Shown here: one piece after another, positions 101-29,566 of the stretch | How the letters are laid out: every line of letters begins with the position of its first letter | Numbering within the stretch: position 1 is the stretch's first letter | Origin: Arbacia lixula | Lineage: Eukaryota > Echinodermata > Echinoidea > Arbacioida > Arbaciidae | Length of the DNA stretch: 64,000 bases | NCBI GenBank assembly: GCA_963669155.1 | Contig: CAVLGW020000039.1 | Location: 20,736 to 84,735 of the forward strand | Direction: 5' to 3' | Notes under the pieces: generated by a model | Seen by the model: only the letters and a program-made list of their open reading frames with translations | What the model was told of the DNA's origin: nothing | The model's database searches: none | Position numbers and translations under genes: made by a program

Positions 101-170
101 TGTTGATCAGGGTTGGATTGAACCATCATTAGGTGTATCAGACGGCAATTCCTTGGTCATCACATCAACA
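101..170 (-). ncRNA. C/D-box snoRNA-like unit A1 (RBM33 last visible intron)
   Basis: On the minus strand: terminal stem TGTTGAT/ATCAACA, C box GTGATGA, guide CCAAGGAATTGCCGT, D' CTGA, variable linker, C' TGATGG, guide GGTTCAATCCAACC, D box CTGA, closing stem. All boxes are canonical or nearly so. It shares its upstream flank ACAAGACAATTGACTG with copy A8, which points to recent copying. The host exon is on the same strand. Confidence 0.8.
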
Positions 171-653
171 ATCCATCTCACACTACATGCATACAATGCT
201 TCCTTTATGCAATTTGAGTTGCCAACATTCATTTTGTTTTCTGGGGGTGTCTGATTTTTTTTTCAAACCTCCAATGCTGTGCTTATCCAATTATGAATCT
301 TTAAATTTTCTTTCCCTCTTAACACTCTGTGCCTCATCGCCTTTTTTTTTTTTACCAGTAAAACACAAACCATCCTATGTGAGCAGTCCTTTTTGTCATA
401 ACAGGAAGAATCAAATACAGTCCAATCTTGCTATAAGAAGCACAGAAACAGGACTTTGTTTTTTGTTAGAACAAGGCAATGCCCCCACCTCAATTTCAAG
501 TAATGCATGTGACTCTGAGTTCAGTAATCAGCATAAAAAGATAACTAGGTGTTTGGCTTGGTACCGAGCACATCGTTATAACAGAAGTGGACTGTACCAC
601 CATTCAAATAATGCACGCCATATTTTCTGGAGGATCCTGGGTATTATACTAAC

Positions 654-742
654 CTGTGGAACCTCTGCTGGAATATGTGGGCGTGCTCCTCATTCGGGAA
701 TCTGACGATGGCTTTCCTCTGCTGCGGAATCATCTTCAAAGA
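654..742 (-). CDS. RBM33: RBM33 exon: second half of C-terminal RRM
   Basis: Acceptor CTTCTCTGCAG, donor CACAG/GTTAGT, phase 0 to 2. Encodes SLKMIPQQRKAIVRFPNEEH and AHIFQQRFHR. The IPQQRKAIV-F motif is almost the same as vertebrate RBM33 LPQQRKAIAKF. The last exon(s), expected to encode the final RRM strand, lie beyond position 1. Confidence 0.87.
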
Positions 743-3700
743 CTGCAGAGAAGACAGGAACAAAATGTTGAGGAAACAATAATTTGATATGTTGATTGAC
801 ACATCAATTGATTGATTGATTGAATATGACAATGGCTTTCCTCTGCTGCGGAATCGTCTTCAAAGACTGCAGAAAAGACGGAAACAAGACAATGAGGGGA
901 TGACAATGTGATATGTTGAGTGACATATCGATTGAGTGATTGATGAAGATTGAATACGACGAAGGATCTCCTCCACTGCAGAATCGTCTTCAATGACTGT
1001 AGAGAAGACAGGAACACAACACTGAGGAAATAATAATTTGATGTATAGATTGAAATATCAATTGAGCAATTGATTGATACATTGAATCTGATTAAAGCTC
1101 TCCTTTTATCATTATAGGCACTTTTTCTGTTAATTGCATTCATTTATGGAGATGTGTAATAAAGTTTAATGGAATTGGCTTACTGAAATTGGTCCCACTG
1201 AATTGAGCATGCCAGCCAGGCTGTCCTGGGAGGTGGAGGGTGCTAGACCCATGACGGCCACCGTCGCCCCTCCACCACCCATGAAGGGGGGCTGCTGGGT
1301 GGCCCCCAGGGGGATCACAGTTCTCTGCTTCATGGCTGGCGGGGTCTGGCCCGGGGACGGGTGCTGCCTGCACCACGGGGGAAGAGTGATGGGGAATTTG
1401 GGGAGGGGGGGGGGCAGGTAGAGAGAGAGAGAGTTGCATGGCAGTTACGGACAAGGGAAAAAGGAGGAGGGGGAGGGGGGAAATGAGGAGGGGGAGGGGG
1501 GAAAGGAGGAGGGGGAGGGGGAAATGGAGGGGGAGGGGAAGAGAATGGGAGAGGAAGTGAGAGAAGGGAAGAAGGAGGGGGAGGGGGAAAAGTTAGTCAA
1601 ATGGAAGTTGAAAATGGATGGGGCAGTTGAAAGGAGTGAAGGAGTGTAAGGAGTAGAGGAAAGAGAGGGAAAAGGAGGGGGAGGGGGAACAGGTGATTGA
1701 AGTGTGGTGAAGAGGAGAGGATCGAGAGAGATGAAAGGGTAAACAAATAGGTGTTATACAGAGCATAACGTGCAATACAGAAAGGAGTGGGAGGAGAGGG
1801 ACAAGGTTTTAGCGACTTGAAAAGTATTTAAGAGGGGCGGAGACAATAAGATGGAGTAGTGCAGAGGAAATGGAGGAGAGATGAGAGAGAAGGGATAGGG
1901 GGTAGTTTAGGAAAAGAAGGTATAGAGCAAAAAAATTTACTGGTACCATCACAGTTGTAAACATTTTAACAAATATATTAAATCTGCGCTGCATTACAGA
2001 GCTGAACACTATCAATCATAAAACAGTCAATAACAGAATACAGTGTTGTGTTATTTATTCCTTCAGCGCTCAAGGCATTGGCACTCACCACAGCCTATAA
2101 AACCTGGTAACATTTATGACGGGTCAAACAGTTGATCAGGGTTGGATTGAACCATCATGTCTTGTGTCAGACGGCAATTCCTTGGTCATCACATCAACAG
2201 TCATTCTTATCGCACTTCCTGCTCTAAATAATCACTGCACGCAAAGGAAATTTGAGCACCCTGAAATTAAGGGGAAATATTGCAAACGTTGAAGTCAGGA
2301 GCCAGATTTCTAATGTTACATATTGCATCATATATACATATAGGTAGAAAAGTTTTCGCCCAGTGCTTATTTGAAATGTTACATACTGCATCATATATAA
2401 AGGTAAAAAATAGTTTCCCTCTAGTGATTTATGTATGGAAACTCTAACCTGGTAAGTGGTAAGTTCCTCTAACCTGTAGGACCCATCTCAACTTCCAATC
2501 CCTTCCACATACCTGATGATTGTCCTCTGAACAGGTGGGGAGTGCATGTCCTCCATGGGCGGCTGATGTTGATGATGTTGTTGCTGTGGTGGCTGGGAGA
2601 GACGACCGTGTATCCCCCCTCCTCTTCCACCCCTGCCTCTTCCTCTTCCCCTCGTTGGCCCTCCTCGTCCTCCTCCCCTTCCTCCGCCCCTCATGTTGGG
2701 GTTGCCTCCCATCGGCGGCTGCATACCACCCCTCTGGGCCGACATGCCCCCTCTCTGTCCATGCATTCCGCCTCCCCGGGGGGTGTGCATACCCCCTCCT
2801 CTTGGTGGCTGCATGCCCCCTCTATGCCCACCACCACCACCCATGCCCCCTCCTCGATGTCCCTGCATGTTCCCCCTGCCGGCAGGGTCATGCCCGCCCC
2901 TCATGTTTCCTCTCCCTCTCATCGCACCCCTACCCCCTCGCTGCCCCCGGCTCCCCCTCTGGCCTGGGGGAGCACCCCCCCTGCGGTAGCCCTCCATCCC
3001 CTCGTTCTGTGGGTGATAACCCTGTGGCATGATCACTGTCCTTTCTTGCGGGGGGCTCTCCTGGTGGAAGAGTTGCTGCTGGTCACTGGGGTGGGGACCT
3101 GGTGGTCCATGCTGAAATCCCTGGGCAGGGTGCCCGCCATGGGCACCACCAGGAGGGCCCAGGCCCTGCTGGAAGCCTTGCTGTGGATTCATGTCATGTT
3201 GTTGTTGAGGTGGAGGCATATGTCTCTGATTTGGCGAGGGCCCACGTCCTCCTCCTCGCATTTGACCACGACCCCTGTCCCTGCCACGACCTCTGACCTG
3301 ACCTCTTGTATTGGACTGGCCCTAAAGGTGCGATAAGAAATTGGCTTTTATTATAACCAGTTTAACTTCAGGGTGGACTTTCCCTTTAACCATAAGAACA
3401 AAATACCTCTAGTCTGTGTTTGTTGGTCAGGGTTGGATTGAACCATCATTTATTATGTCAGACGGCAATTCCTTGGTCATCACTTCAACTCATCACAGAA
3501 ATTGGTGTTAACGTCATGAAGCTGTGTCTGCCAATGTACAGGAAATCAGAATTTCATGCCCAGTTCTACAGACAATGTAACAACTCAAAATGAGAAAGAT
3601 AGGCACACAACAGACAAATGGGGAGGAAGAAGAAAAGAACAGAAAGAATGACGTGGAGGAGAAAGAAAAAGAAAGTTTGGAAAGATGAAAACGAAAGATA

Positions 3701-6700
3701 CGACATAGGGAAAACTATCGAGGAAAAGATAATAAGAAATGGAAAGAATATGAGGGATGGACAGGGCAGGTCCAAAACGTGAGGAGAAATAGGAAAATTC
3801 AAAGGCACAAATGAAGGAACAGGAACAGCAACCAGAAGATGAGGGGGAAAAGAAGGGAGGAGAAAGACAAAGAAAATGAGTAGTACAATTCTCAATACCG
3901 CATAAAAGGAAAAGTCGTACCACGGAGCAACATGCAGCCACATTCAGATTTTGTTCGCAGCGGTATCCGCTTCCAGACTAGTGTAGAAGTGTATGAGACC
4001 GAAAGCAGAGATGACTACAAACAAAATCTGGATGTCGCTGCTCTGTGTTCTATGGGACGGCTTTCCCCTACATGCTGTAGGGAGAGAATAACTGTATAAT
4101 GTAGGACACAATTTACTAAAATACCATTGGACACTTACCCTTCCTCTCTGTGGTTGGCCGGTTCCTCCCCCTCTGGAGGGGGCGGGGTGCGTCATGCGCT
4201 GCGGCCCCCCTCCCAGGGTGGGGATCGGCTGCCCCTGTGGGGGGCCGTCAAAATCCTGGCTAGGCCCGGTCAGCACCTAGGGGATGACCAACACAAGTTC
4301 AGTCTTAAATTCATAATATATACCCCAGGGAGGTTATTTTTTTAAATAATCGGGGGCCTTCTTTTTTTAATTAGATGTCATGAAATGGACATCCTGGGGG
4401 TGTTTCACCAAGCTTCAGCTTCACAATGATTTTGATTTCAATTAGCTGCAGTTGAAATCTGATATGTAGAGATCAAATTAGTTGTTGTTCACCAGCGTCT
4501 GAATTCGAACTTAATAATTTGTCAAATTTAATTGGGATTTAGGAAATTCACTTCCACTATGTTCAAACAGGAACAAAAATCTAATTTAGCAGAACAACAA
4601 GTCACCAGTCATGCATAAAGTCATGCTTAACTTACAGCTTGGTGAAACACACCACTGAACCATGTTATATATATATACACCCGAAGACGATTTTTTTTCC
4701 CCCATCTTCATAGGTGCTCTCTTGTTACTCACAGAGGGTATTTTTACTTAGAGGGTTAATTCACCCTAAGCCCCCTTGTATCTTGACACTGTAATTTGTT
4801 TTTATTCTTATGCTTAGTAATTATCTCTCTCATAATGAAAATTATTATTTAATTTTAATCGTTTGCCTCTGTGATTGTTCATCAGGGTTGGATTGAACCA
4901 TCATATATTGTGTCAGACGGCAATTCCTTGGTCATCACATAAACATATCACAGAATTACATTTTTTCCTATTGTGTGTTAAAGATTTTTTTTTAGCAAGG
5001 TACATCAAACTTTCAACAATTTGATGACATATCTGTTCATTTTCTCTGCAGGATGAAACATATACCGGCACATTGGTCCAACGTCTCTAATCATACTTTT
5101 ATTTCTATACCTATCCAGTCTTTTTAAGGGAGTGTGGATATACTGACCTTGACATTTCCCTGTTCAGTCCACTGCTGAGCATGGGGAGGGTAGCCCCCAC
5201 CAGGGTGGTGGAATGGGGGAGACCCCTCGTCTACAAATTAAATAAATATAATCCCATGACAATCGGCCTGCTAACATTTAGAATGCATATTATCCTCCCC
5301 ATGCAATCATGTGACAATCAGTCTGATTACATAATTTTGTGCAACTTATTCACACCACACGAACAGGCATCTGATCATATGATTGTATAATTGCCATCTA
5401 CGAGAACTACTGAAGCAATAGCTAATTCATCAGCGCTCATTGGCTGCTCCGTTCGTAGTTGCAATTGTAGGCTACAATAGCTGTACAGCCATATGCAACC
5501 CAGTCCTGGGTCACATTGCATTAAATTACTGTAACTGGCAGTGGAAAATGTGGCAGAAAGAAGAATAATACTCAGCGCTCATTGGCTATTTCCATGGTAG
5601 TTCAATCATTTGTAAATCATAAATCACATGGTCCTGAGCAATTTTTAATCATTGTAACTGAACATCAGTGGTAACTGCTATGGAAAGAGGCATAATACTG
5701 GCTGTGCTTTGGTCATCCCAGTAAGTGACAACAGCGTGCTTCTGGGGTGTGAATGTTGATCAGGGTTGGATTGAACCATCAGTTGTTTTTGTCAGACGGC
5801 AATTCCTTGGTCATCACATCAACATAGCACAGCCCTCCCTTCAGGGAGTAATAAAACTCTCAGGGAAAAATGGAAGGAATGGTAAAGACTACCAAATCAG
5901 GGCCCTGTTGCATAAAACTTACCATTAATAGTAACACTGTCATCAGTGGTAATTACCATATCGCTCAACAGCCAATCAAATTCAAGATTTTCATAGAAGT
6001 TGTCATTGGGAGCAAAGTTACCATCAATGGTAAGTTTTTATGCAACAGGGCCCTGTAATCAATGGAGTGCCATTCAGCCATGATCATGGGTCCCAGGGCC
6101 ATGTTGCATAAAACTTGCCATTGATGGTAACTTTCCTATAAATGGCAACTTCTATGGAATCCTTGAATTTCATTGTTCTTCTTCTGCTCTTTCCCCAATA
6201 TTCTGAAACAATCTACCAACATCCATCCATGAAAAGTCTTCTACACTCTTTTTTAACCCTAATACTCCCGGGGGGGGGGGGGGGGGGGCCATTATGGCCC
6301 CCCCCCCCCTGTTGAAGTTTTGTCGGTACTTCCTAACGCCTCAATATTTCGAAACGAAATTTCTTGACTATTTTCTCTGATCCTTCCCGCACATTTTGAT
6401 ACCAAATTTATGGCGATCGGACCTACCGTGCGGGTGTCAGATTACGTTTACCGAACACATGTCACTGAAATTTCGCATTTCTCTATGTGACTGTGTATAA
6501 CCCTATGGATAAAATCAGCTTTTCCAATTTATGTAAATACTTTTCTAATAAGTGTTATCATTGTTTCATATAGTGTAGATAATTACCACACACACACACA
6601 CACACACAAACACACACCCACACACACACACCCACGCATACGCATCTGAATCACAACGAAAAACAAAGAAATACATAAGAAAATTGAAAAACAATAAAAT

Positions 6701-9700
6701 ACATAAGAAATAATTACCGCAACCTATCTTTTTCTTTCAAGAATTGATGAGGGAGTTATGAAAGACATTTGTACCAAAAATTGCTATTCCTGAGGCTTTA
6801 TTTAGTGAGAAATACAAAAATCTATGATTTCTCGCATAAATTAGCATAAATTAATTATTTAAAAAAAAATAAAAGGACTTTCGTAAATTTTGCTATACAA
6901 CTTTGTAGATTACATAATTCTTTACCCTTGTGCAAAATTTTGAGGCAATCGGGCGACCCATGGCCGAGATCTCAGGGGGGGGGCCATAATGGCCCCCCCC
7001 CCCCCCCCCCCCCCCCGGTAATAACAAGCTTTGAAATACCCCGGGAGTATTAGGGTTAAGACCCTTCTCATCTCTTTAGGCAATTATTGTAAATCTACAT
7101 GTATGTACAGTCAAACCAGTCTATAGCGGCCGCTCAAGGGAAACCACAAAAGTGACCACTATAGACAGGTGACCACTATAGACAGGTCGGCGGCCATTTT
7201 GATTTTGAGCATGGATATGTTTTGCACTATGTAACCTTCATGCTGCAACATAATTTATTGCTTACGAATGATATACATACATTTTATTTTTATGTGATAT
7301 GTTAATAGTATTTTATCATGTTTTCGTTCAATGAGAAATATGAATAAACCTGAAGGCACATTTTCGTTATCTGTGTATTATTTCTGTGTGTGCGATTTTG
7401 TGAGAGATCTGTGTATTATTTCTTTTGTGCCCTGAAAGGGGCCCAACCAGTTGGCACGGTAAAGGGTCATGAGCATCCAAGGGTATGTTTGTTTAGTCTA
7501 GATCTGCAAAAAGAAGAATGAAACACAATATCATGCCATAAATTTGTCTTCAGTGTTCGAACAAAAATGAATAATCAAGCAGATCACTCATAGAAAGTCA
7601 TTTTATGTAAACTGTATCAAATGCGTCCTTATCAGATGAATATCTTAATTCAATATCATATTTTCATCGGCTGTCTCAACTCCCGCGAGTCTAGGTGATA
7701 AATGCTATGTTAGATATCTTACGCCAAGAAAGACAATTTCTATTTTAACTGATGAAATAAATGTGGTTTAGCAGAGAAAACACATGTTATCGGATTTCTT
7801 TAAAATCTCAAGTTAAAGGGCATATACTGTACTGGGAAGGCAAAAAAGCCTTCAAAAGGTAATTGTTAGCAATCTTCTTGCCAATGGACTTCAATTCATG
7901 TATTGTCCATTTTAGAAGCTTGCTGAAAGTTATTTGCCCTGAAATGATCCACATATGGAGTAATTAATTATTAATGATTAAATCCTCAAAATGTTCGGCC
8001 CGAACATTTTGAGGATTTGTGATTTAATCACTCATTACTCCAAATACAGATCATTTGAGGGCAAATAACTTTCAGCAAGCTTCTAAAATAGACAATACAT
8101 GAATTTAAAGACAATCAGACCCGGCGCTCAAGAGGGCGTTATTCCATGTAAGCGCATGAGCGGACAGTACGTGTTGTCCAATGACGGCAATGTTATTCGA
8201 TAATTTCACCGGTTACGCAAATGCCATGTTCCGAATGCCCGAAGAATGTCGATTCTCAATCTAGGTATGCCGAAATACAGTTCGGCTCATGATTCGGCGG
8301 CTGTTCCCTGCTGGCTCCGCCCACGTACATGTACATTACGCCGTTTACGGTATGCACAAACGTGTACTGGCATAGCTCGCTCGGCTAGCGCTCACAACGT
8401 ACGTGAAAGGGCAAGCAACGCATATCCGCAATCTACCAGTTTGATTGACAGCGTTACTCGTCAAACGTCGGAACTAAGATGGCGATGACTGTGACGTCAT
8501 CCAACAGCGCCCTCTTGAGCTCCGGGTCGAAATTCCTTTAAGACCATTGACAAGAAGATTGCTAACAATTACATTTTGAAGGCTTTTTGCCTTCCCAGTA
8601 CAGTATATGCCCTTTAATGTGCGTTTAGTTTCTTACGTTTGGGATGTTCATAATGTCTTGACCATGCAGCACTGCACGACCTAGTACTGCGAGGAACCAC
8701 ACGCATACATTAGTACGGGCGGGCGTAAATCGTTTAAAACTTTGAACAGAATTGTTAACTTTGTCAAATAAACAGAATCTTGAATTGAAATACCCTTCTG
8801 AAAAAAACAGGAAACATTCGTTCATTACAAGAATGGGCAACTTATTCATGTCCACATTTTGAAAAGAAGAGAATGGACCTCCACCGGCAGCCTACCGGAT
8901 ATTAGAAAAGATACATGTAGCAACAAGGGCTGCATATGATGGAAAGCCCGCTTGCTTGGGGGCATTGGCGTTGCTTTGAATAGTGAATAAACGGCATAAC
9001 AATTTCAAAAGAACGACAACTTGCCGAAAACAGGATCTTGAATTAAAATACCCACGTTAATGATAATCAAGTGTTCTCTTTTTCGTTGTTAGTAAGAATC
9101 TCCTCATCTTCGTGTCTATGGTTTCTCTCTCCGATCGATTGACAGCTAGTGCAAGTGCCGTGCATAGTGCACTCTTACTTCGTCTAAGGTAGCACGATAA
9201 ATATTAATTTCAATTAATAAAAGAAAAAAATATATACGGCTACAAATGCACATTAAAATATATCTTCTATCTTGACATATTTCATCTAATCGAGAAATAT
9301 TCTTTATCGTGTCTTTTAAAATATTTTTGCCTCAATAATTTCCGAACGGGAGTTGATTGAAGTAAGCAGCTTATTCCATAGGGGTAGGCATATCGATGAG
9401 TTTCGAGTTCCTGTGTGCTTCTGAGATTGCGAACGCTGAAGAACCGCGCGCTGCTGCCAGCTTGCAGTAGCGCATATCGCGGATCCAGATTGGTCTGGGC
9501 ATGGGCTGAGAGCGCGTGCGAACCTGGGCTGCGCTGGCCTCGGGGCCGAGCGAGGACCCGGGGTATTATTCATCACAACAATAAAAGCATGGGATGCAGA
9601 GACTCACTAAAACAAGAACAAAAAAACACCGGACATCGGGATTTCATTGATTAGGGTAATCAAGTTAAGATCCTGCTTTTTGTTTGGCAAGGTCTCTTAC

Positions 9701-12700
9701 AAGTTTCATACATTTCGAGAATGTGTTAATGAGCTGTATTACGTCATGCAGCTAGAAAGCAGGCTTTTCATGCCTCTAGCTTTTCACGGCCGTTTAAGTT
9801 ACGTTGCATCGCAAAAAGCCAACTTTCCATGCCGATAGGGACGGGTGATTTCAGAATTGGTGGCCGCTATACACAGTAAAATTTTGGCCGAGGGAGACAA
9901 AATGGGTGGCCGCTGGCCGCGTTAGCCAGGTGGCCGCTATATCCAGGGTCTTTAACACTGAATTTCTCTGCGGAGGAGTCGAAGGTGGCTGCTATAGGCA
10001 GGTGGCTGCTGAATCCAGGTGGCCGCATAGCCAGGTTTGACTGTACCTCTTCCACCTGTCCTTTTAACATAGATTATCATGATGGTGATGATGATAAAGA
10101 TGAAGAGTAAATAGTCTGTGCTTACCATGGCTGGCATTCTGGTTGGTGTTGAAAGGCTGTCCCTGGTAGTGGTTGCGGTGCTGGGGGTGCCCCTCCTGGA
10201 ACTGAGGGGGTGGGGTCTGGGCAGGAGGGGACATCACCCCGCCCCTCCCCCTCCCCCTCTCCTGCTGCTGCTGCTGCTGCTGCCCCCCTGCACTCCCCCT
10301 CCGACCCTTGGGCGGGGTGGGCTTCTTGGCGGGTGGGGCGGAATCAGCCTGGGAAGGAATTACATCAAGGGGGTTATTCTCTGTTTCCTCATCATTTTTG
10401 TGTTGACTCTTACACTGTCAACAAACACTATAAACATGATCTTTTGTTTCACATACAAACTTTGAAAGGGACCCTTCGAAATTTTGTCTCCGTAACAAAA
10501 GACCATGTTCATAGTGAAATACGTAGCTGCCAACTTCCTTGTCCTAATGTCAGTATTTTGCTTTAAAAAAAAGCATTCTGAAGAGAAAATTGGACTAAAA
10601 TAAAGTATAAGGTGTGTGATTTTTTTCAGAGTGAAAAACTACCACCAAAAAAGTAACAATTAGCTGCTTTCTTTGAATTATTCATCTCATTCATTTGCCC
10701 GAGAATTATTTTCCAGATAAGCAAGCAAGAAAGACTACAGTTGTAGACTGAAGAGTATGGCTATTGGCTACATTTGGATTACCACATCAAATCATTGTAA
10801 CCAGCAACATCATATTGATGAATCTGAATATGAAATAAATATTGAAGCACATGAACAGCCCTTTTTTTCTGTGATTGGTGATCAGGGTTGGATTGAACCA
10901 TCACTTGGTATATCAGACGGCAATTCCTTGGTCATCATTTCAACACATCACAGAACACAGTGCAGGAGGGCGTTTCATGAATATTTTTCGTCTGACAAGC
11001 TGTCTTTCTCCGACAGTTACCATAGTAACAGTCAGAGGCTAGTGCCTCTCGGCCCATCAAAACCAAGGATTTCACTGAAGATGTCAGCACTGATCATTTG
11101 GTCAGTGTTGACAACGTTCATGAAACGCCCTCCTGGAGTTCACAGTCATCTCTTCCATCGGCACCTCTTGCCCTATCTTACCTCTCCGCTCTGTTTCTTC
11201 TGCTCAGCAATTCTCCGTTTCAGGTCGGTCTGTTTCTGGAGGGCCTGCTGCTGGCGCCGTTCTTCCTTGCGCTTCATGATGGCTTCTCGCAGCTTCTTCT
11301 GCTCGTCCAGCATGACTCTCAGTCGCCTCTCTTCCGCTTCTTCATCAATCTGGGTAATGAACAATTTGAAGGAATGTTCTTCATAAATTGGGCACTTAAT
11401 GTAGTCTAATGTTTTTGTGGGATGATGTTACATTTCACTCTTGTATTTTTCTATCCTCCTTCTCTTCTCTCTCAAGAGCAGTAATAGTCAAACAAACTGT
11501 CACCCTAGCATTAGGTCTATTGCCATGTGGGTAGTTGTAGAAGCATGAAGCAGTCATACACATAGTTGTAGATGACAGACATTCTAGTACAAGAAGTAAT
11601 AAAAGTCGTAGTAGTTGTAGTAGTCATAGTCATAGAAGTAGTAGTGGCAGTGGTAGTAGTAAAAGTAGTGGAAGTAGAAGTGATAGTAGCAAAAGCAGAA
11701 GTAGGAGTGCGCATAGAATAAAGAAAAAGGAGTAGTAAGATTTATGGGTAGTAGTTGTATATCAATCAGTATAAGTATTATAATATGAGATGCAGAACTA
11801 CTTCCTAAAAGTTACCTCTCCACTTGGTTTGGTCGATGTCTTCTTGGCCAGCACCTGCCTCAGGTCATTGGGTGGTTTACTAGCCGCCTGCTTGATCAGC
11901 TGACTAGGAGGGGCCACAGCCTTCTGGTTACTAGGGGACAAAGGTCAAAGGCCACAGATCAACGGTTACTAATTAACCATCATAATGCACCAACTAAATC
12001 AACACTATAATCATTAGAAACTCTGCTTACAATGACAGTCTCTAGATGGTTTCATTAACAACATAGATGAAGAAAATAAAATGGTACCTAATAACACCCA
12101 ACCCCCCTTGAGAATTGTAAGGGCAAAGGTCAAAGATCAACTGTAATGAATTAACCATCATTACGATTATCAATCATTCAAAAACTTGGCTTATATTTCC
12201 TGTCTCTTCATGATTTCAATAACCGCATGGAGGGGGGGGGGGGGGAATAGAATGTTCCTTCATGTTAAATCTCACTGCTTTTTTTATGTCTATACGTACC
12301 TTGAGGATTGTGGTCCCTTCTGTGTCTGTTGCTTGACTGGTGTCCTCTGCCCTGGCATTGCTCCTCTGTCCAGTAAATCAACAAGTTTGGCAATTCAACT
12401 TGGTTAACTCTTTATCTGCCATTGGTGCATTTTAGCACAAATAACACACACAGAACCCATAGAGCTCAAATTTGTCTGGCGTAAAAAGGATTAAACCAGT
12501 CTACTGCACTATATCATTTGTCAATCATGAAGATATGGTTTGATGTTGCTGCTAATAAGTTCAAACATGTTCGGGATTTGTGATCAGGGTTGGATTGAAC
12601 CATCATATTTCATGTCAGACGGCAATTCCTTGGTCATCATATGAACACATCACAGAATTCCATGCGTGGTCCCACTTCTATAAACAAGGCATTAGCAATA

Positions 12701-15700
12701 TTGTGTCTCGCCCACTTGCGAAAATAACCAGAAATATCGCGATCTCCGTTGCTACGCAAAAGAAAACTGAAACAAATAAATAAGCAACTTTAAACAGACA
12801 ACATCAAAATCAGGTGCAAAATAGTGACTTTGAATAAATTTGCATAAATGTGCATGAGTAATGTTTGCCTAAATCTACATCAGTAATGCTCACACATGCT
12901 CACACAATTCTGTGCACAAGTTAGGAAGCCTTCACCAAGAGTCTTGCAAGTAAACTTTAATGTATGACCTCAAATTACCTTTGACCTTATCATGTGACCT
13001 CTTACAGCACAATAACATGCAGGTGCCCCCAGTGCATCCATCATCCAAGTTTGATTGCCATTGTAGCAACATGTGATGAGTTATGTGTGATAAGAGAGTC
13101 TTGCAAGTAAACTTTAACGTATGACCTCAAATGACCTTTGACCTTATCCTGTGACCTCCAACGGTACCATAACATGTAGGTACCCCCAGTGCATCTATGA
13201 CCCAAGTAAGGTTGTAATCCAAGCAACCTATGTGAAGTTATTTGTCAAAAGAGAGTCTTGCAGGTAAACTTTAACGTATGACCTCAAATGACCTTTGACC
13301 TTATCCTGTGACCTCCAACAGCACCATAACATGTAGGTACCCCCAGTACATCTATGACCCAAGTTAGGTTGTAATCCAAGCAACCAATTTGTCAAAAGAG
13401 AGTCTTGCAGGTAAACTTTAACATATGACCTCAAATGACCTTTGACCTTATCCTGTGACCTCCAACGCCACCATAACATGAAGGTACCCCCAGTGCATCT
13501 ATGACCCAAGTTAGGTTGTAATCCAAGCAACCCATGTGAAGTTATTTGTCAAAAGAGAGTCTTGCAGGTAAACTTTAACGTATGACCTCAAATGACCTTT
13601 GACCTTATCCTGTGACCTCCAACGGTACCATAACATGAAGGTACCCCCAGTGCATCTATGACCCAAGTTAGGTTGTAATCCAAGCAACCCATGTGAAGTT
13701 ATTTGTCAAAAGAGAGTCTTGCAGGTAAACTTTAACGTATGACCTCAAATGACCTTTGACCTTATCCTGTGACCTCCAACAGCACCATAACATGAAGGTA
13801 CCCCCAGTGCATCTATGACCCAAGTTAGGTTGTAATCCAAGCAACCTATGTGAAGTTATTTGTCAAAAGAGAGTCTTGCAGGTAAACTTTAACGTATGAC
13901 CTCAAATGACCTTTGACCTTATCCTGTGACCTCCAACGCCACCATAACATGAAGGTACCCCCAGTGCATCTATGACCCAAGTTAGGTTGTAATCCAAGCA
14001 ACCCATGTGAAGTTATGGATCATAAGAGAGTCTTGCAGGTAAACTTTAACATTTGTGACGGACGACGGACGACGGACGGACGACGGACGGACGACGGACG
14101 GACGCCATTTGGATCCCTTAGTCTCGCCTTCACCTCCGGTGGGCGAGACAAAAACAGGAATATCAATGGAGACCAATGGGAGTTAGAAATATTCCAATGA
14201 TCTACAGACCTAAGAGCACTCAAAATAAAATCCACTGAGCCCATACAGACACATACAATGATACCTGTAACCTGCGCAGTGTAAAATACTGTGTGACTTT
14301 ATAACACCAATTTTTATCTTGTGAAAAAAGCAATACATGGTTTAATAAGGATTACTATTTCTTCTTGAAACTTGAAATATTTGTGTATTGTTCCTCCAAA
14401 TATCAATTTGAACTCTGATTTGAACTCTCATCATGATAAAATTAGCATTCCATTCAACAAGAGATCAGAGCACAAAGGAAAAGATACTACAATTCAGTCA
14501 ACCGGCAGCGCTCGCTCGTTCTATAGAAATCGTGAGCGTTTTATTTTTCGTCTCGCGAAATCTCACGCGCAGATTTTGCTGCACCTAGATTATGAAGGAA
14601 TTCGACATGCTCGCGAGATCTGTTGCTGGTGTCTTCTGTAAGCATACTGATCAGGAATTTTTTAGGCAGGGATTGAGATTATATGTTTCTTAATAAATGT
14701 TTTCATTTTTTTCCGAAATCCGCAAAGGAGTTTTTATGTCATGTGCTTTCAAATACAGGCCTCAATTTTTTTTTTGAAATATGTAAGCTCTCAGACCTTG
14801 CTGGATCCTGACCCTTCTATGGGTTGTACGGCAACGACAGTTACGGCTCTAAAAAGCCAATACTTCAGCGGAGATTTTGATTCAAATATTGCTTGGGCTC
14901 AAAAATAAAACATTTTTGCTATTCGTCTTCAAAGTGACGCGAGATTTCAGAAATCGTACGGACTTCGCAACCGATATAAATGTAAGCTCTCAGACTTTGC
15001 TGGATCCTGACCCTTCTACAAATTGGACGGCAACACCAGTTACAGCTTTGGAAAGCCAGTACTCTAGCGGAGAATTTGATTCCAGATTTGTTTGGGCTCG
15101 AAAATAACACATTTGTGCAATTCGTCTTCAAAGTGACGCGAATTTTCAGAAATCATACAGACTTCACAAACGATATTCGTCCGCAGGCAGCAGAAAACAC
15201 GGGATTTTATTTTCAGCGAGGTAGTCGTGACCTTCATTTGTCCTCTAGAACCGCGGAAAACGTCTCCTTTTCAAACTGCGATATCTTCATGAACATACCA
15301 TATTTCGTACGCTTTCTTTTGCAACTGTATGTTGGAGGTCGAAATTTACCAACTATGAAGAATCATTTCATTAAAATAGGCAGAAAAATATTGTAAATTC
15401 GAGATAAATATGTGGTTCTAATTAAATAAAGAAAAATGAATATAAACTCTATATTTCAATGTCAATCGCTTTTAAGCCCCTAACATTTAGAGGTCATCTG
15501 AAGCGGAATGTATTGTACTTTATGAAGGTACCATTATTTTTCAACCTCCCCACATAGAAGGGTCAGGATCCAGCAAAACATCAACCATGTTCAAATCCAA
15601 AATGAGCGAGATATGACGAAGTTGTGAGCGATCATAATCAGCCAATCATAGTCCGCGACACTTGAATCGCCGGTAGTATTTTGTTATTATCGTGGACTAT

Positions 15701-18700
15701 GATTGGCTGGGTAGGATCGTTCACAACTTCGTCATTTCTCGCTCATTTTGGATTTGAACATGGTTGATGTTTTGCTGGATCCTGACCCTTCTATGGGGGG
15801 AGGTTGAAAAATAATGGTATCTCCATAAAGTACAATAAATTCCGCTTCAGATGACCTCTAAATATTAGGGGCTCAAAAGCGATTGACATTAAAATATAGG
15901 GTTTATTTTATTTTTTTTTTTTTCATTAGAACCACATATTTATCATGAATTTACAATATTTTTCTGCCTATTTTAATGAAATGTTTTTTCATAGTTGGTA
16001 AATTTCGACCTCCAACATACAGTTACAAAAGAAAGTGTACGAAAATATGGTATATTTATGAAGATATCGCAGTTTGAAAAGGAGACGTTTTCCGCGGTTC
16101 TAGAGGTGAAGTGAAGGTCACGACTACCTCGCTGAAAATAAAATAAGCGTATTTTCCGGTGCCTGCCATTTGGCTGAATCATGCAATAGAGTGGCAAGTC
16201 ATTGGGCCCTGATACCATGACGCTGTACATTCTATAACACAGAGATAGCCTGCGCTAGACCGCGGTACCTCCATCCGCCTGAACAGCCTCACCATCACGA
16301 GAACAAGTTAACCTACCTGACTTGATGAGCCTGGGGTGCGTTGGTTGGGGGCTGTCTCTCCTTCCTACCCCCTCTTTGCTGGCCTGGCTGCACCGGATGG
16401 GGCTCCCTGAACTGCCCCCCAGGCCCGGGCCCCTGCTGATGGTATGGCCCTGGCCCTGGCCCAGGCCCAGGGGGTCTCTGCTGCCCCCCTGCAGGTGGTG
16501 GAGAGGGGAACCGAGCACCTGGCTGGGCCTGCTGCTGGGGAGGGGGTGGTCCCTGAAACTGCTGGTTGGGGTGGTGGTGTGGGGGCGCTTGATCGCCCAT
16601 GAGTGGTTGTGGGGGGCCCTGCAATTTGTTGGGTTAAAAATATTGGGGAAAAGGTTACTTTATTTACTGGAGTTTTTTTATTTGGAATAGCGGTGTTGCA
16701 GTATGAGATACATTTCTTTCTAGCTGCTTTTTGCGTTTCACCCTAGGGAAGCTATCGCAGTGTTGCGGCAGACTTGAATTTCTGTTGATTTGCCCAAACC
16801 GTAGGAAATTAAATGTTCGGGTCCGGTGCGGCTACCGAGAATCTAACGTTAGGCATATCGTTAAATCTAACGTTAGACCATATTCTCGTTATTGGAGGGG
16901 GGAGGGGGCTACGAACAACATGACGGTACAGTACAAGGTGAAGTTCACTTACCTGAATCATGTTGCTGTTGTGCTGATAAATGGGCCATTTTGATTGAAA
17001 TGTGACTGTTGTAAACACGAACTGTACATAGGCTACACATGTACGCGTACATATGTACCCACGCCCGGCGCAGCGCGGTAAAACCACAATTTTTTTATTA
17101 CAGGGCACCGTCTGCGCCGAGCTACTTATTGATAGTTCGAGTGTAATGCACTTTTATTTCGCGCGTACTCAAAATATTGATCACGCGTTAGGACAGTGAA
17201 GAGTGAAGAGATCAGCGAAACCACAAAGTACTATTACCTAGAGTGTAACAAACTTTTCTTCTCAAGTGATCAAATGGGAAAAACTATGCTTCATCACGTG
17301 ATCAACTGATCATATAGCAACATTCTTAGTATGTGGCATGTAATATTTCTTAATCGGAAAAAACATGAATAAAGTCAATGTACAAAAGGATAATCTCCAT
17401 ACCTGGGGCTGTGAGTACTGGTTGTGTTGTTGATGTGGTATACCACCTTGGGGATGTTGCTGCAACAAGAACAAAACCAAAACAAAACTTGTGAATAAGA
17501 TTTGTCTACTGTTGGGCATCAAAGAATAATTTCTTCCTTTTGAAAAGATGCACAATGTTGTGGGGTCTTTACGACAATAGTAATTTTATTTTGCAGAACA
17601 TCTATGCTGAGATTTCTATTGAATTGCAGGGATGGTTTACCCAAGAAGAAAGTTGATTCTTGAAAGGAAAATAAAACATCAATTAGGGAGTGGTCAAGAA
17701 TTCAATGTAGTGTGAGATCTAATAAATTCTTTGACTGACAAAATTATGTGATGTCATGCACGAAAAACGAAATTGGACATCAAAGGACTTGGGCTTTCCT
17801 TCTTTCTTTAATTCATATTATTGTTTTGAAAGACATGTTAGTACAAATTAAAACAAAGGATAATTTAAGGGACCACAGAAAACAATTGAATCTCGAAATG
17901 CAACAAGAAAGTTTGTGTATGTTTTGAACATTTAGACGTAAAACAAATACTTACGATACCTTCTTACTCAAATCAATAGCAACTTATCAAATAATCTTTC
18001 CTTGGCCATGTTGCACACAAGTGTTTAATTGTTGGAACTTACCATCAATGGTACAGTTGGGCCTGAGATCAACGTGACAGCTGATTGCAATCTATTGCAG
18101 TCAGACTGCAGTAAATGTATGGAGCTGATTGCATTTGACTGCAATCAGCTGTGACGTTATCTCAGGCCGTATTGTAACTTCCATTGCAATAGGTGCAATA
18201 ATGAGAGCTCATTGGCTGTTGCCATGATAGTCATAACTGAAGACCTATATGCAACATGGCCCTTGTCATGAGTAAAGACAATTGAAACCAGAGAAGTCTT
18301 ACTTGTGGCTGAGAGTGAGGCACATGATGAGGGGCTCCTCCCCCATGGAACTGTTGCTGAGGGGGCGGGGGTCCACCCCCTCCACACGGCCGGTGCTGGG
18401 CAGGAGGTCCCCCAGGGTGTGGCGAGCTGGTGTAGATAGGTGCTGCAGCAACAAGGGCAAGGCAGATAGATGTCAGAGACACAATTAATACTAACAAAAA
18501 TTCTCGGTAACGCAAATATCTACAAAATATCACTTTGCGTGGTACTTTCCAGATTTTGGTCTTTTAAGTTGCTAACTGAGCACTCCTGAATATATTAGTA
18601 GGTCAGCTCCCATTACCAATGACATTTTCCTGGTAACCCACTTTCCCACAGAAATTTGTCCAATCTGCTACTATACTGTAATATAGAGGGTTTGTACGAA

Positions 18701-21700
18701 ATGTTTCAGAAGATAACTGAAGTCTACAAGACTGGAAGGGTACAGGTCAACAAATTTTGCTGGAGAGCTGATATCCCATGACAGGACAGCACAAGACAAT
18801 TGACTGTTGATCAGGGTTGGATTGAACCATCATTACGATATCAGACGGCAATTCCTTGGTCATCACTTCCAACAGTATCAGCCTTCTTGTATTTAACTCT
18901 TGTGTACAACGTTTACTCTTGCTCCATGTGGACAAACCAGGAATTGTTTTGGGGATGATTAAAAAAATTGTTGACACAGAAAATGTTGCTATGTTCTTTT
19001 AAATTCAAGGCAGCAATGAACCAACCCCATTGCACTGTTCTGGCCCTACTATGACAAAAGGAAGCATGTGGCAAATCACTCAAATTTGAGTTATTGGTTC
19101 TCTTGAAATTGTTCCCAGCACTCCCTACATACTGACACAATCTGGAAATGAAATGTTCATCTTGCTGCAAGATATTCAATCTAACATAATGTGGTAGTGC
19201 ACTGATGCAAATTCAAGTGACAGACACATTTTGCTCATTTACGAGAAAAGCTAAAAAGTTGATTAGGTGCTTCCTTTTGTGAAGAAGGAGATATGACATT
19301 CTTTTGACAGCTGCTTGCAGGGATTTCTTAATACCTGACATAGCTATTGTTCGCAATGGATATAATATACAACAATGACAAATAACATGCTGCGGCGCTG
19401 ATAGCTCCCACTCACCTGACTGCTGTTGTTGTTGGTTCTGCCACGCCCCCTGGGGTGCAGAGTGAGGTGGCTGCTGCTGACCCCACCCTGGGGCAGACGT
19501 GGGCGGGGGACCGCTGACTGGAGGTGGGTGCTGCTGCTGCTGGTGAGGGTGGGGCGGGGCAGGGTTGGCCTGTGAGTGGGGCTGGGGCCATGGCTGTGAA
19601 GGTTGGTGCTCCTAGAATTGACCCGGAATATAAACAAAGATGGACAACAGTCAATATATACCAATCACTATAGTCGACCAGAAATGGGCTGGCGGTTATA
19701 TCGCTGCCTGGTAAGCAGTAGATTGCAGGTTCAAATCCCTCTGGTTCCAAGATTTTTTTCTGTTTTTCATTTATTTACAGGATGGAGCATGTTCTCCTTA
19801 CTACTGGGCATTTCCCTGAAAACTTTTCAAAATTGCTATGTGGGTTGTCTACAGTAAAGGGATATTTTTTGGCACAACTGAATCATTTGAAATTATGACC
19901 ACCTTGCACCACCAAAATAGATGAGTGTGTTACAAACTCGTCTGTCCTGTTACCAACCTGCTATGGCAAATTTGTACAGGGCAAATTTTCTGAAGCATAC
20001 AAAACCTTGTAAAGTGCAAATAAATAAATTTCTTTGATATTTTATTATTATTGGCGGGTTTATTTAAGAGACAAAAATTAACACCTGAGTATAGTGACCA
20101 CATTCGTTGTCTACCTTGAACAATGTTTCTCATTGAAACCTATATTGAAGTAATCTATACTTTTAAGACCATCTCCTCATAAAGATAACATTTCACGTCT
20201 CCCTTGAGCGATCTTTCTAAACAGTTTTTACGATATTCATGACATTTCTACTAGCAGTATAAATATTACATTATCACAATATTACAATATTACATTATCT
20301 TACAGATAGGCAGATGAACGTTGTGACAACCGTCATTTACCTGGTACTGGTGTGGGGGATGTTGTCCCTGTTGGGGGTGTGGGTGTTGCTCATGTTGCTG
20401 CGACCCATGGTGGGGTTGTGGTGGCGCAGATTGTGGCGGGGGTTGCTGAGCACTAGCTGCTATGGACAGTGGCAACAACAACAACAATGCAATTAGTTGC
20501 AGGATCCTACTTCACAACAGCTTTAGTAAACTCCACAGATTATGCAAACACATACATGAAAGTGGTTATATGGGACTTAATTGATTAAATCCTGTTGATC
20601 AGTCTACGTTACTATCACCACTGGAAATCATGAACAGCGATTCTTGGAAACATCATATCAACAGGTTTATTCACACAAAAGGTTGCAAAACATGTAAAAA
20701 ACAGTACAGTCACAGGCAGGTAATTGTGAAAAAGATCAAATCTGTGGGTAATTTATAGCCTTAGCAAGGTTCAATGACCTTTGACCTTACAAGTTTCATC
20801 TCTTTGAAATGATCCAGCTTTTTTGTACTATGTTTGGTCAAAAATTTGGCTATTTGATGAAATCTGAATGTTGGAACAATTTTGAGCTAATTTCATTGAC
20901 CTTTGACTTGTGACCTTTCAAGAGTTTTTCTCTAGGTTGAAGCAAATCTGCTGAATGATTTTCAAGATATTGCGTGCACGGATTCGGGACGGATGGACGG
21001 ATAACATTAACCCCAAAACACAATGCCTCCATAGCGGAGGCGGAGGCATATATAAGAAATCGCACAGGGAACCGTTATAGCTATAATGCGCTATATAAGC
21101 TTTAATTATTATTGTAATTAAGAGAAGGAAAGGAAGACAGGGCTACTCACATGTCTGTGGGGGCACCTGGACCTTCCCTTTAAAGTGGGGATTGATGAGG
21201 ATCTTCTTGGGCCCACCGGGCTGGGCTTGGCTCTGACTCTGACTGGTGGGAGGTGGTTGCTGCTCAGCGCGGGGTGCTGGTTGCTGCAGCATGGGTTGTG
21301 GTGGATGTTGTTGCTGCGGTTGCTGCTGCTGCTGTTGTGGTTGCGAGTGTGGTACTTGCTGCTGCTGCTGTGGCGGCGGGAGACCCGAAGGGGGTCGACC
21401 GTCTCTGGTCCGGTCCGGACTGTTTCGGAAGAGTGTTACTGCAGGGGGTGGTATCTGCTGCATCTCCTGACGCACATGTTGCTGCTGTGGCTGCTGATGT
21501 TGATGATGCGGCGGGGGAAATCGCTGCCTTACATTGTCCATGTGGTAAGGTGGCCTTCCACCGCCACCACCACCACCCCAAACAGGCTGGGGACCAAGTA
21601 ATCCAATTCTCGGCTCAAAGGGGAATCTCATTTGCGGGCCACCCATGAAAGGAGGCCCACCACGTGGGGGTCCCATATGATTGGGGAAAAGGGGGCGCAT

Positions 21701-25430: not shown

Positions 25431-26385
25431 TCGCCCACCGGAGGTGAAGGCGAGACTAAGGGATCCAAATGGCGTCCGTCCGTCGTCCGTCCGTCGTCCG
25501 TCACAAATGTTAAAGTTTACCTGCAAGACTCTCTTTTGACAAATAACTTCACATGGGTTGCTTGGATTACAACCTTACTTGGGTCATAGATGCACTGGGG
25601 GTACCTTCATGTTATGGTACCGTTGGAAGTCACAGGATAAGGTCAAAGGTCATTTGAGGTCAAACGTTAAAGTTTACCTGCAAGACTCTCTTTTGACAAA
25701 TAACTTCACATGGGTTGCTTGGATTACAACCTAACTTGGGTCATAGATGCACTGGGGGTACCTTCATGTTATGGTGCCGTTGGAGGTCACAGGATAAGGT
25801 CAAAGGTCATTTGAGGTCATACGTTAAAGTTTACCTGCAAGACTCTCTTTTGACAAATAACTTCACATAGGTTGCTTGGATTACAACCTAACTTGGGTCA
25901 TAGATGCACTGGGGGTACCTTCATGTTATGGTACCGTTGGAGGTCACAGGATAGGGTCAAAGGTCATTTGAGGTCATACGTTAAAGTTTACCTGCAAGAC
26001 TCTCTTTTGACAATTGACTTCACATGGGTTGCTTGGATTACAACCTTACTTGGGTATAGATGCACTGGGGGTACCGTCATGTTATGGTACCGTTGGAGGT
26101 CACAGGATAAGGTCAAAGGTCATTTGAGGTCATACGTTAAAGTTTACCTGCAAGACTCTCTTTTGACAAATAACTTCACATAGGTTGCTTGGATTACAAC
26201 CTAACTTGGGTCATAGATGCACTGGGGGTACCTTCATGTTATGGTACCGTTGGAGGTCACAGGATAAGGTCAAAGGTCATTTGAGGTCAGGGATACAATT
26301 CTTTTGCGTAGCAACGGAGATCGCGATATTTCTGGTTATTTTCGCAAGTGGGCGAGACACAATATTGCTAATGCCTTGTTTGGAT
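25428..26385 (+). mobile_element. Satellite-carrying transposable element, copy 2
   Basis: Left end GTCTCGCCCACCGGAGG with hairpin, CCGTCCGTCGTCCG tract, five 157-bp units, right end GCAAGTGGGCGAGACACAAT. Units carry AGGTCA A AGGTCA TTTG AGGTCA (25640-25662 and equivalents). It lies in the 5' UTR intron proposed for RBM33. Confidence 0.82.
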
Positions 26386-26848
26386 TAGTAAACTTAAACT
26401 TTTAATTTTATAAATTAGTGAATTTAACTTGTTGTAAGCATGTTGTTAAGCAAACACGCCAGAACAGACATGACCATGATGACAGACCCAGTAAATTGTT
26501 TTTGATAATCAATTCCTTGATATTATAATACTAATACATCACAAATAATGGCAGTACAGACAGTGCAACCAAATAAGTTTGTCGCGCTAAAAGCCCACGC
26601 GGTGCGGACGTCGAGTCGCACGCAAGTGGCTACTAGTACCACGCCATTGGAACTGCATGGGCATTGTCACCCCACTAACTCGAACTCGCACTGTATACTA
26701 TCACACACACATCGGTCGAGTCCATCCGGCGTGTCTCTCGATCTCTCTGACAGCAGCCTCAAACACACTTCTTTCATACATTTACCCTTCCTTACCCTTA
26801 TTAAGTAAAGTTAAGGACTTCGGTTCCCTCGTTGAGTTAAAAACTTAC

Positions 26849-29366: not shown

Positions 29367-29566
29367 NNNNNNNNNNNNNNNNNNNNNNNNNNNNNNNNNN
29401 NNNNNNNNNNNNNNNNNNNNNNNNNNNNNNNNNNNNNNNNNNNNNNNNNNNNNNNNNNNNNNNNNNNNNNNNNNNNNNNNNNNNNNNNNNNNNNNNNNNN
29501 NNNNNNNNNNNNNNNNNNNNNNNNNNNNNNNNNNNNNNNNNNNNNNNNNNNNNNNNNNNNNNNNNN
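29367..29566. other. Assembly gap (200 N)
   Basis: Run of N of exactly 200. The right flank (29567-29603, AAGAAGAGGGAGGAGATG...) is repeated at 29748-29787, with a 58-base C run (29616-29673) between, so the local assembly is doubtful. Confidence 0.99.

Follow-up and report, generated by a model that had tools for sequence, protein, structure and literature searches.

Eight box C/D snoRNA-like units with unchanged guides in the introns of an RBM33-like gene of Arbacia lixula

A short sequence that recurs eight times along one gene may be a set of box C/D snoRNA genes or a repeat, and in the former case it should be asked which rRNA nucleotides its guides would reach. To address this question, we analyzed a window of 64 kb, by which we mean the whole stretch of 64,000 nucleotides from Arbacia lixula, together with the assembly to which it belongs (607 Mb, 590 contigs). 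All genome-wide pattern counts given here should be considered as lower bounds. The contig carrying the window is a short 84.7-kb piece beside chromosome-sized contigs. A preliminary description had listed eight copies of one C/D unit, and all eight were recovered on the minus strand, with no difference among them (8/8) in either guide or in the boxes D', C' and D. Each is given below from C box to D box, with the folding energy of its closing duplex.

107-163, minus strand: C/D unit 1, closing duplex -18.7 kcal/mol
2136-2192, minus strand: C/D unit 2, closing duplex weaker, -10.2 kcal/mol
3427-3483, minus strand: C/D unit 3, closing duplex -13.1 kcal/mol
4882-4938, minus strand: C/D unit 4, closing duplex -18.4 kcal/mol
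5760-5817, minus strand: C/D unit 5, closing duplex -19.6 kcal/mol
10882-10938, minus strand: C/D unit 6, closing duplex -17.9 kcal/mol
12584-12640, minus strand: C/D unit 7, closing duplex weaker, -10.7 kcal/mol
18811-18866, minus strand: C/D unit 8, closing duplex -15.9 kcal/mol

Judged from their sequence, these units are most likely functional box C/D snoRNAs. All eight carry a C box RTGATGA and a D box CTGA, with the internal boxes D' CTGA and C' TGATGG. The C box, described as (G/A)TGATGA, begins with G in six copies (GTGATGA) and with A in two (ATGATGA), and its variation is confined to this first base (184/196 pairwise identities). The remaining layout, boxes and both segments, also stood as claimed, except that the second segment as delimited there has GG in common with the C' box. 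The first guide segment, CCAAGGAATTGCCGT, has 8 exact matches in the 64-kb window, all on the minus strand, and when up to 3 mismatches are allowed the count stays at 8 (8/8 exact), compared with a mean of 1.60 for shuffled sequence and with 0/100 shuffles that reach 8. The second segment, GGTTCAATCCAACC, likewise has 8 exact matches in the window on the minus strand, at a start-to-start distance of 31-33 nt downstream of the first segment. With up to 3 mismatches it has 10 matches in the window (8 exact and 2 with 3 mismatches), a count that is not above chance, as 24/100 shuffles reach 10.

Pairwise comparison of the eight units gave complete identity for the D' guide (420/420), the D' box (112/112), the C' box (168/168), the D guide (336/336) and the D box (112/112), that is, for 1148/1148 comparisons together. 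Beside these unchanged guides, the D'-C' linker had been reported to vary, and it does so, with an identity of 122/259 (47%); for the outermost flank, the value is 65/196. Over 48 nt, unit 8 and its 3' flank (18788-18835) are 98% identical to the corresponding stretch at unit 1 (84-131). This match takes in the end of the unit, and the flank sequence common to units 1 and 8 would be consistent with a local duplication.

The closing stem, which had been described for most copies, was obtained by duplex folding in 8/8 units, with energies of -10.2 to -19.6 kcal/mol, and is weaker in copies 2 and 7. When counted without gaps, the closing stems of the eight units retain 7-11 of 12 pairs. In fixed alignment columns copies 2, 7 and 8 retain only 7, 9 and 5 of 14 closing pairs, so that the register of the stems differs among the copies. 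When both strands of the 64 kb were scanned ab initio for C/D units, with an exact C box and five or more closing pairs as requirements, 5 units were detected, 5/5 of them among the eight; the other three, in which shorter uninterrupted stems adjoin the boxes, were missed. A covariance search, proposed in the preliminary description, gave weak matches to C/D families of Rfam, but no family reached its gathering score in the window. The best scores there were 24.4 bits for SNORD69 and 23.7 bits for SNORD49, both below the gathering score of 37, and other C/D families score similarly (SNORD41, 25.5 of 41 in the window; SNORD36, 20.8 of 30 in copy 1). As no unit passes a gathering score, such genes escape standard annotation.

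The host had been named RBM33, and this name is supported: two joined exons are 54% identical to 'RNA-binding protein 33-like [Strongylocentrotus purpuratus]' (E 2.7e-18), and RRM_1 scores 21.2 bits, against a cut-off of 20.7, on the two joined exons nearest the window's low end. A protein search with a single exon fragment gave no match, and Pfam, applied to nine translated ORFs from the window, yielded nothing above a curated cut-off; it was the two joined exons that identified the host. Our gene model comes from splice-site scoring, exon by exon, on the minus strand, and small exons may be missing from it. No phase-consistent automatic chain through all host exons was found, and motif inspection for the last RBM33 exon downstream gave nothing convincing. 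The exons of the model are as follows.

654-742, minus strand: RBM33-like exon, second half of the RRM (splice sites; RRM_1 with the preceding exon; RBM33-like match)
1184-1367, minus strand: RBM33-like exon with the first half of the RRM (its upstream limit, set by hand, is approximate)
2513-3321, minus strand: host exon between units 2 and 3 (splice-site scoring)
4139-4276, minus strand: host exon between units 3 and 4 (splice-site scoring)
5148-5230, minus strand: putative short host exon between units 4 and 5, the least certain separating exon
10126-10414, minus strand: host exon between units 5 and 6 (splice-site scoring)
11182-11349, minus strand: host exon between units 6 and 7 (splice-site scoring)
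16317-16618, minus strand: host exon between units 7 and 8 (splice-site scoring)
17403-17459 and 18303-18442, minus strand: further host exons between units 7 and 8 (splice-site scoring)
19416-19611, minus strand: host exon upstream of unit 8 (splice-site scoring; others further upstream)

On this splice-site model there is one unit per intron, sense to the host, in agreement with the earlier account, and units 4 and 5 lie in separate introns only if the putative short exon 5230-5148 is real.

Several other features of the window were recorded. The RRM exon 742-654 is overlapped by a tandem array at 698-1074, made of three copies of ~123 nt that are 80-84% identical to the first, and the two outer ones resemble degenerate exon duplicates. 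The intron of unit 7 holds, at 12938-14169, six register copies of a repeat with a spacing of mostly 157 bp, and similar translations recur near 25854-26388. Long hairpins at 15616-15732 and 18061-18167 give weak matches to miRNA models (39 bits for a gathering score of 95, and 28.4 bits for one of 68) and are perhaps short inverted-repeat transposons. A long minisatellite-like stretch at 46046-47283 is repetitive and open in three frames, and 29367-29566 is an assembly gap of 200 N.

The distribution of the units over the assembly bears on the question of a repeat. The full D' guide with its D' box has at least 8 exact matches genome-wide, all in the window, and at least 5 with two mismatches, 3 of which are relatives, compared with 3 for the reversed control. 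The D' core TGATGNNNNAGGAATTGCCGTCTGA has at least 12 exact matches in 607 Mb, namely the 8 in the window, 3 on contig C11 and 1 on contig C12; among the matches listed, none has 1-2 mismatches and 6 have 3 mismatches, compared with 4 for the reversed-pattern control. For the D guide with its D box, GTTCAATCCAACCCTGA, only the eight RBM33 units appear among the matches listed at up to 1 mismatch (reversed control, 3). The longer pattern TGATGGTTCAATCCAACCCTGA (C' box, D guide and D box) has at least 8 exact matches genome-wide, all in the window, and at least 7 further genome matches with 3 mismatches, compared with 0 for the reversed control. Three of these 7 are one repeated sequence, and none of the 7 carries the D' guide around it. 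Further copies at up to 3 mismatches were absent from 20,000/20,735 contig bases beyond the window, and the remaining 735 bases fall within the genome-wide D' guide search.

The three units on C11 lie within an ornithine decarboxylase (ODC) gene, sense to it as judged from exon translations, and Pfam Orn_Arg_deC_N was found in 3/4 ORFs tested from this gene. In all four relatives, three in ODC and one on C12, the D' core is intact and 11-12 of 12 pairs of the closing stem are formed. ODC copy 3 (L031:9009-9090, minus strand) has 12/12 closing pairs and the strongest SNORD49 similarity (30.1 bits, E 1.1e-5, gathering score 37), and its D guide, TCAACCAAATCC, differs from that of the RBM33 units. 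The ODC copy L013 scores 27.7 of 63 with plasmodium_snoR28, 26.4 of 30 with SNORD36, 21.2 of 52 with snoR77Y and 19.2 bits with SNORD49. None of these families reaches its gathering score with copy 3 or L013, and no good site for the D guides of the ODC copies was found in the own 28S fragment or in a comparison set of rRNAs. As for the C12 relative (L034:7-31; G000:C12:11545007), its wider flanks match those of the ODC intron copy L013, and it was therefore probably duplicated as DNA with its surroundings.

Copies of this kind do duplicate, as the flanks common to C12 and ODC indicate, and a transposed repeat family without function would account for these, for the flanking sequence common to units 1 and 8, and for the 7 further TGATGGTTCAATCCAACCCTGA matches at 3 mismatches, three of them one repeated sequence, where the reversed control has 0. 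Nonetheless, eight copies lie in one gene and only four elsewhere among the matches listed, where degenerate copies with 1-2 mismatches are also absent, and all copies are sense in both hosts examined; we consider this explanation to be very improbable. A dispersed repeat or transposon was rejected, as at least 12 exact D' cores were found genome-wide and not many scattered copies in both orientations. It had been argued from the outset that this is no random transposon, and the transposon idea is now close to refuted: hundreds of scattered copies were not found, and the exact D' guides, at least 8, are all here.

If the units are snoRNAs, the D guide is the more readily assigned. Together with its D box it forms the 17-nt sequence GUUCAAUCCAACCCUGA, which, in the alignment of copy 1, agrees at every base with the Rfam consensus of SNORD69, presumably the same RNA as HBII-210. 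As this identity includes bases that are unpaired with 28S, it points to common descent and not to convergence. For pairing, we used a 28S fragment that this assembly contains (L074 1053-2028, G000:C9; 976 nt of the 3' part, RF02543 719.8 bits), which was the only exact match of the pattern search among the matches listed and may be a pseudogene. It holds both vertebrate sites, 38 nt apart, as does human 28S, of which the piece used has the expected base at 10/10 further listed sites checked. On the own fragment, the best site of the D guide is exactly the G4464 equivalent, with 9 bp. The pairing score is not significant, as 29/500 shuffled guides are as good on the own fragment and 40/200 on the comparison rRNAs, and the case for the G4464 target is thus made by the SNORD69 identity and not by the score. 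It should be noted that two numberings are in use: SNORD69 is assigned to G4494 and SNORD49 to C4456 in the accessible text of PMC12288042, while G4464 and C4426 stand in the human methylation list of PMC10657414. The latter are each 30 below the former, with a spacing of 38 in both numberings. We take both to name the same two 28S sites, in agreement with the constant offset. For 18S, a pattern search of the assembly did not find the species' own sequence, and human 18S stood in for it in the pairing tests; viral and prokaryote collections, scanned for eukaryotic rRNA as a stand-in, yielded one 28S end only.

The target of the D' guide is ambiguous, as three rRNA sites compete, and the likelihoods that we attach to them should be read as shares within the snoRNA reading. 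The D' core AGGAAUUGCCGUC is one base from the guides of SNORD49, ceN22 and Plasmodium snoR28 (Rfam alignments), and its part GGAAUUGCCGUCUGA is one base from plant snoR77Y. The site that we put first, tentatively, is a lineage-specific one, the 28S C marked in ACGGC*AAUUCUGCUC, which belongs to the hairpin immediately 5' of the sarcin-ricin loop (human 4558 equivalent). This position is not among the 28S sites in the accessible part of the human list of PMC10657414. It does offer the longest pairing, with ACGGCAAUUCU of the own 28S, in 10 Watson-Crick pairs and one G-U that are contiguous from position 1, and the human sequence there pairs worse with the D' guide. A second own-28S site of this guide scores 14.5 compared with 18.0. 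Scores as high as at the 4558 site were reached by 39/3000 shuffled guides, by 6/472 window 15-mers before CTGA and, in an independent run, by 6/500 shuffles; this is a chance of ~1.3% on 976 nt, which over all rRNA is not decisive. In addition, guide base A12 is unpaired there yet invariant in 12/12 copies, and the supporting 28S fragment may be a pseudogene.

Somewhat less probable, and doubtful in our view, is 18S U627, the conserved site of yeast snR77, plant snoR77Y and human HBII-135, which we take to be SNORD65. It is the top match on human 18S, at position exactly 627, with 11 contiguous pairs, and the guide core departs from the snoR77Y consensus at a single base; moreover, a search of the assembly for TGGAATTACCGNCNGA, made in one register, gave no exact match (reversed control, 2). 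Two of the pairs are, however, G-U wobbles, one of them at the nucleotide to be methylated, and 20/200 shuffles score as high. Other sites in the comparison set are close (U4 snRNA, 15.0 vs 17.0), and the 18S sequence was human, as the own 18S was not found in the assembly. The site itself is conserved in Dictyostelium, yeast, human and Arabidopsis, according to PMC8817022 and PMC3511168.

The third candidate, which we judge to be unlikely, is that the D' guide is the SNORD49 guide and acts on 28S C4426, 38 nt from the D-guide site. ODC copy 3, with 30.1 bits and an E of 1.1e-5, has ATAGGAA-TGCCGTC in common with SNORD49, copy 1 matches SNORD49 with an E of 0.0045, guide base A12 would be paired, and a search of the assembly for an exact guide that carries G, as SNORD49 does, at the changed position gave no match. 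The own 28S has the human sequence at this site, and as it is the guide base that changed, two adjacent mismatches arise at guide positions 6-7; on the own 28S, the D' guide does not pair with C4426 in the manner of SNORD49. The ODC copy L013 also speaks against this target, as its SNORD49 score of only 19.2 bits is below those of plasmodium_snoR28, SNORD36 and snoR77Y.

The D' guide was also considered as an orphan or base-acetylation guide. On human 18S, C1337 would be unpaired opposite D' guide position 6, and pairing flanks it on both sides (pairs read by hand). Yeast acetylation guides, however, hold a 9-11 nt bulge and a non-canonical D' (accessible text of PMC5464676), and after this comparison the acetylation idea was set aside; of all the readings, the orphan or acetylation guide is the most improbable.

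We return to methylation-guiding snoRNAs. The boxes, their invariance, the copy number, the host, the guide identity to SNORD69 and the pairing with the own 28S were observed directly. Invariant guides, a diverged linker, closing stems, one sense unit per intron and the 17-nt SNORD69 identity, all of them properties of the DNA, support the functional interpretation of the guides that had been put forward. We consider it quite probable that the units are intron-encoded C/D snoRNA genes, with a D guide for the 28S G4464 equivalent and a D' guide that is a second guide of ambiguous target. The RNA would be freed from the spliced RBM33 intron, by a pathway that is established for the C/D class; the closing stem would join the C and D boxes, the core C/D proteins would bind, and fibrillarin would methylate whichever rRNA nucleotide pairs with the guide at its fifth base, counted upstream from D or D'. 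Like SNORD69, the D guide would target the 28S equivalent of human G4464 for 2'-O-methylation, and the D' guide would act as a second guide, with the 28S C in ACGGC*AAUUC, 18S U627 and 28S C4426 as candidates. Both guides pair with rRNA over at least 9 bp (9 bp for the D guide, 10 Watson-Crick and one G-U for the D' guide), which by score alone could be due to chance. We infer that the units are expressed and guide methylation, and that dosage is why there are eight of them. It is possible, though we advance it with caution, that a double-guide snoRNA, present eightfold in one host, serves both the peptidyl-transferase A-loop region (the SNORD69 site) and a lineage-specific methylation beside the sarcin-ricin loop, and that guide and rRNA changed together (ACGGCAAUUC here vs AUGGUAAUCC in human).

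The preliminary description knew of no account of RBM33 as a multi-copy snoRNA host. The host was indeed not found described, but the D guide is known, relatives occur in ODC, and multi-copy hosts are described in the accessible text of PMC8178906, where multi-copy C/D families in one host are explained by cis recombination. Among the matches listed that name snoRNA and RBM33, titles and abstract openings do not present RBM33 as a snoRNA host. Among those listed for echinoderm snoRNAs, a combination of RBM33 host and guide was not seen described in the accessible text, which is no proof of absence; for sea star, no public snoRNA data existed in 2011 according to the accessible part of PMC3247247. 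The RBM33 host, the high copy number and the two-guide combination look new, while the intronic C/D gene type is well known. The units thus provide a snoRNA set for an echinoderm genome that is undescribed as far as the literature was searched, with one RNA that combines a SNORD69-type guide with a second guide. The eight copies in one host and the ODC relatives offer a natural test of snoRNA dosage, and also of how guides and rRNA coevolve close to the catalytic centre of the ribosome.

Compared with known systems, the closest is SNORD69 (RF00574), which has the identical 17-nt D guide and D box, the same 28S site and the C/D architecture. Its consensus, however, is without AGGAATTGCCGT at D', the units score at most 24.4 of 37 in Rfam, and eight copies are present here. 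SNORD49 (RF00277), nematode ceN22 and Plasmodium snoR28 resemble the units in the D' guide AGGAA-UGCCGUC, whose register relative to D' is unchanged, but a G to U change at guide position 7 breaks the pairing with the 28S C4426 region here, and the D segment is another one. In the SNORD65/snR77/snoR77Y group (Rfam clan CL00057), the D' core GGAAUU-CCGUCUGA is one base from the snoR77Y consensus, and the changed base faces the nucleotide that would be methylated, giving G-U instead of A-U. Human multi-copy C/D families, such as SNORD58 in RPL17, likewise place one family in several introns of one host, whereas here eight copies lie in RBM33 and relatives in ornithine decarboxylase.
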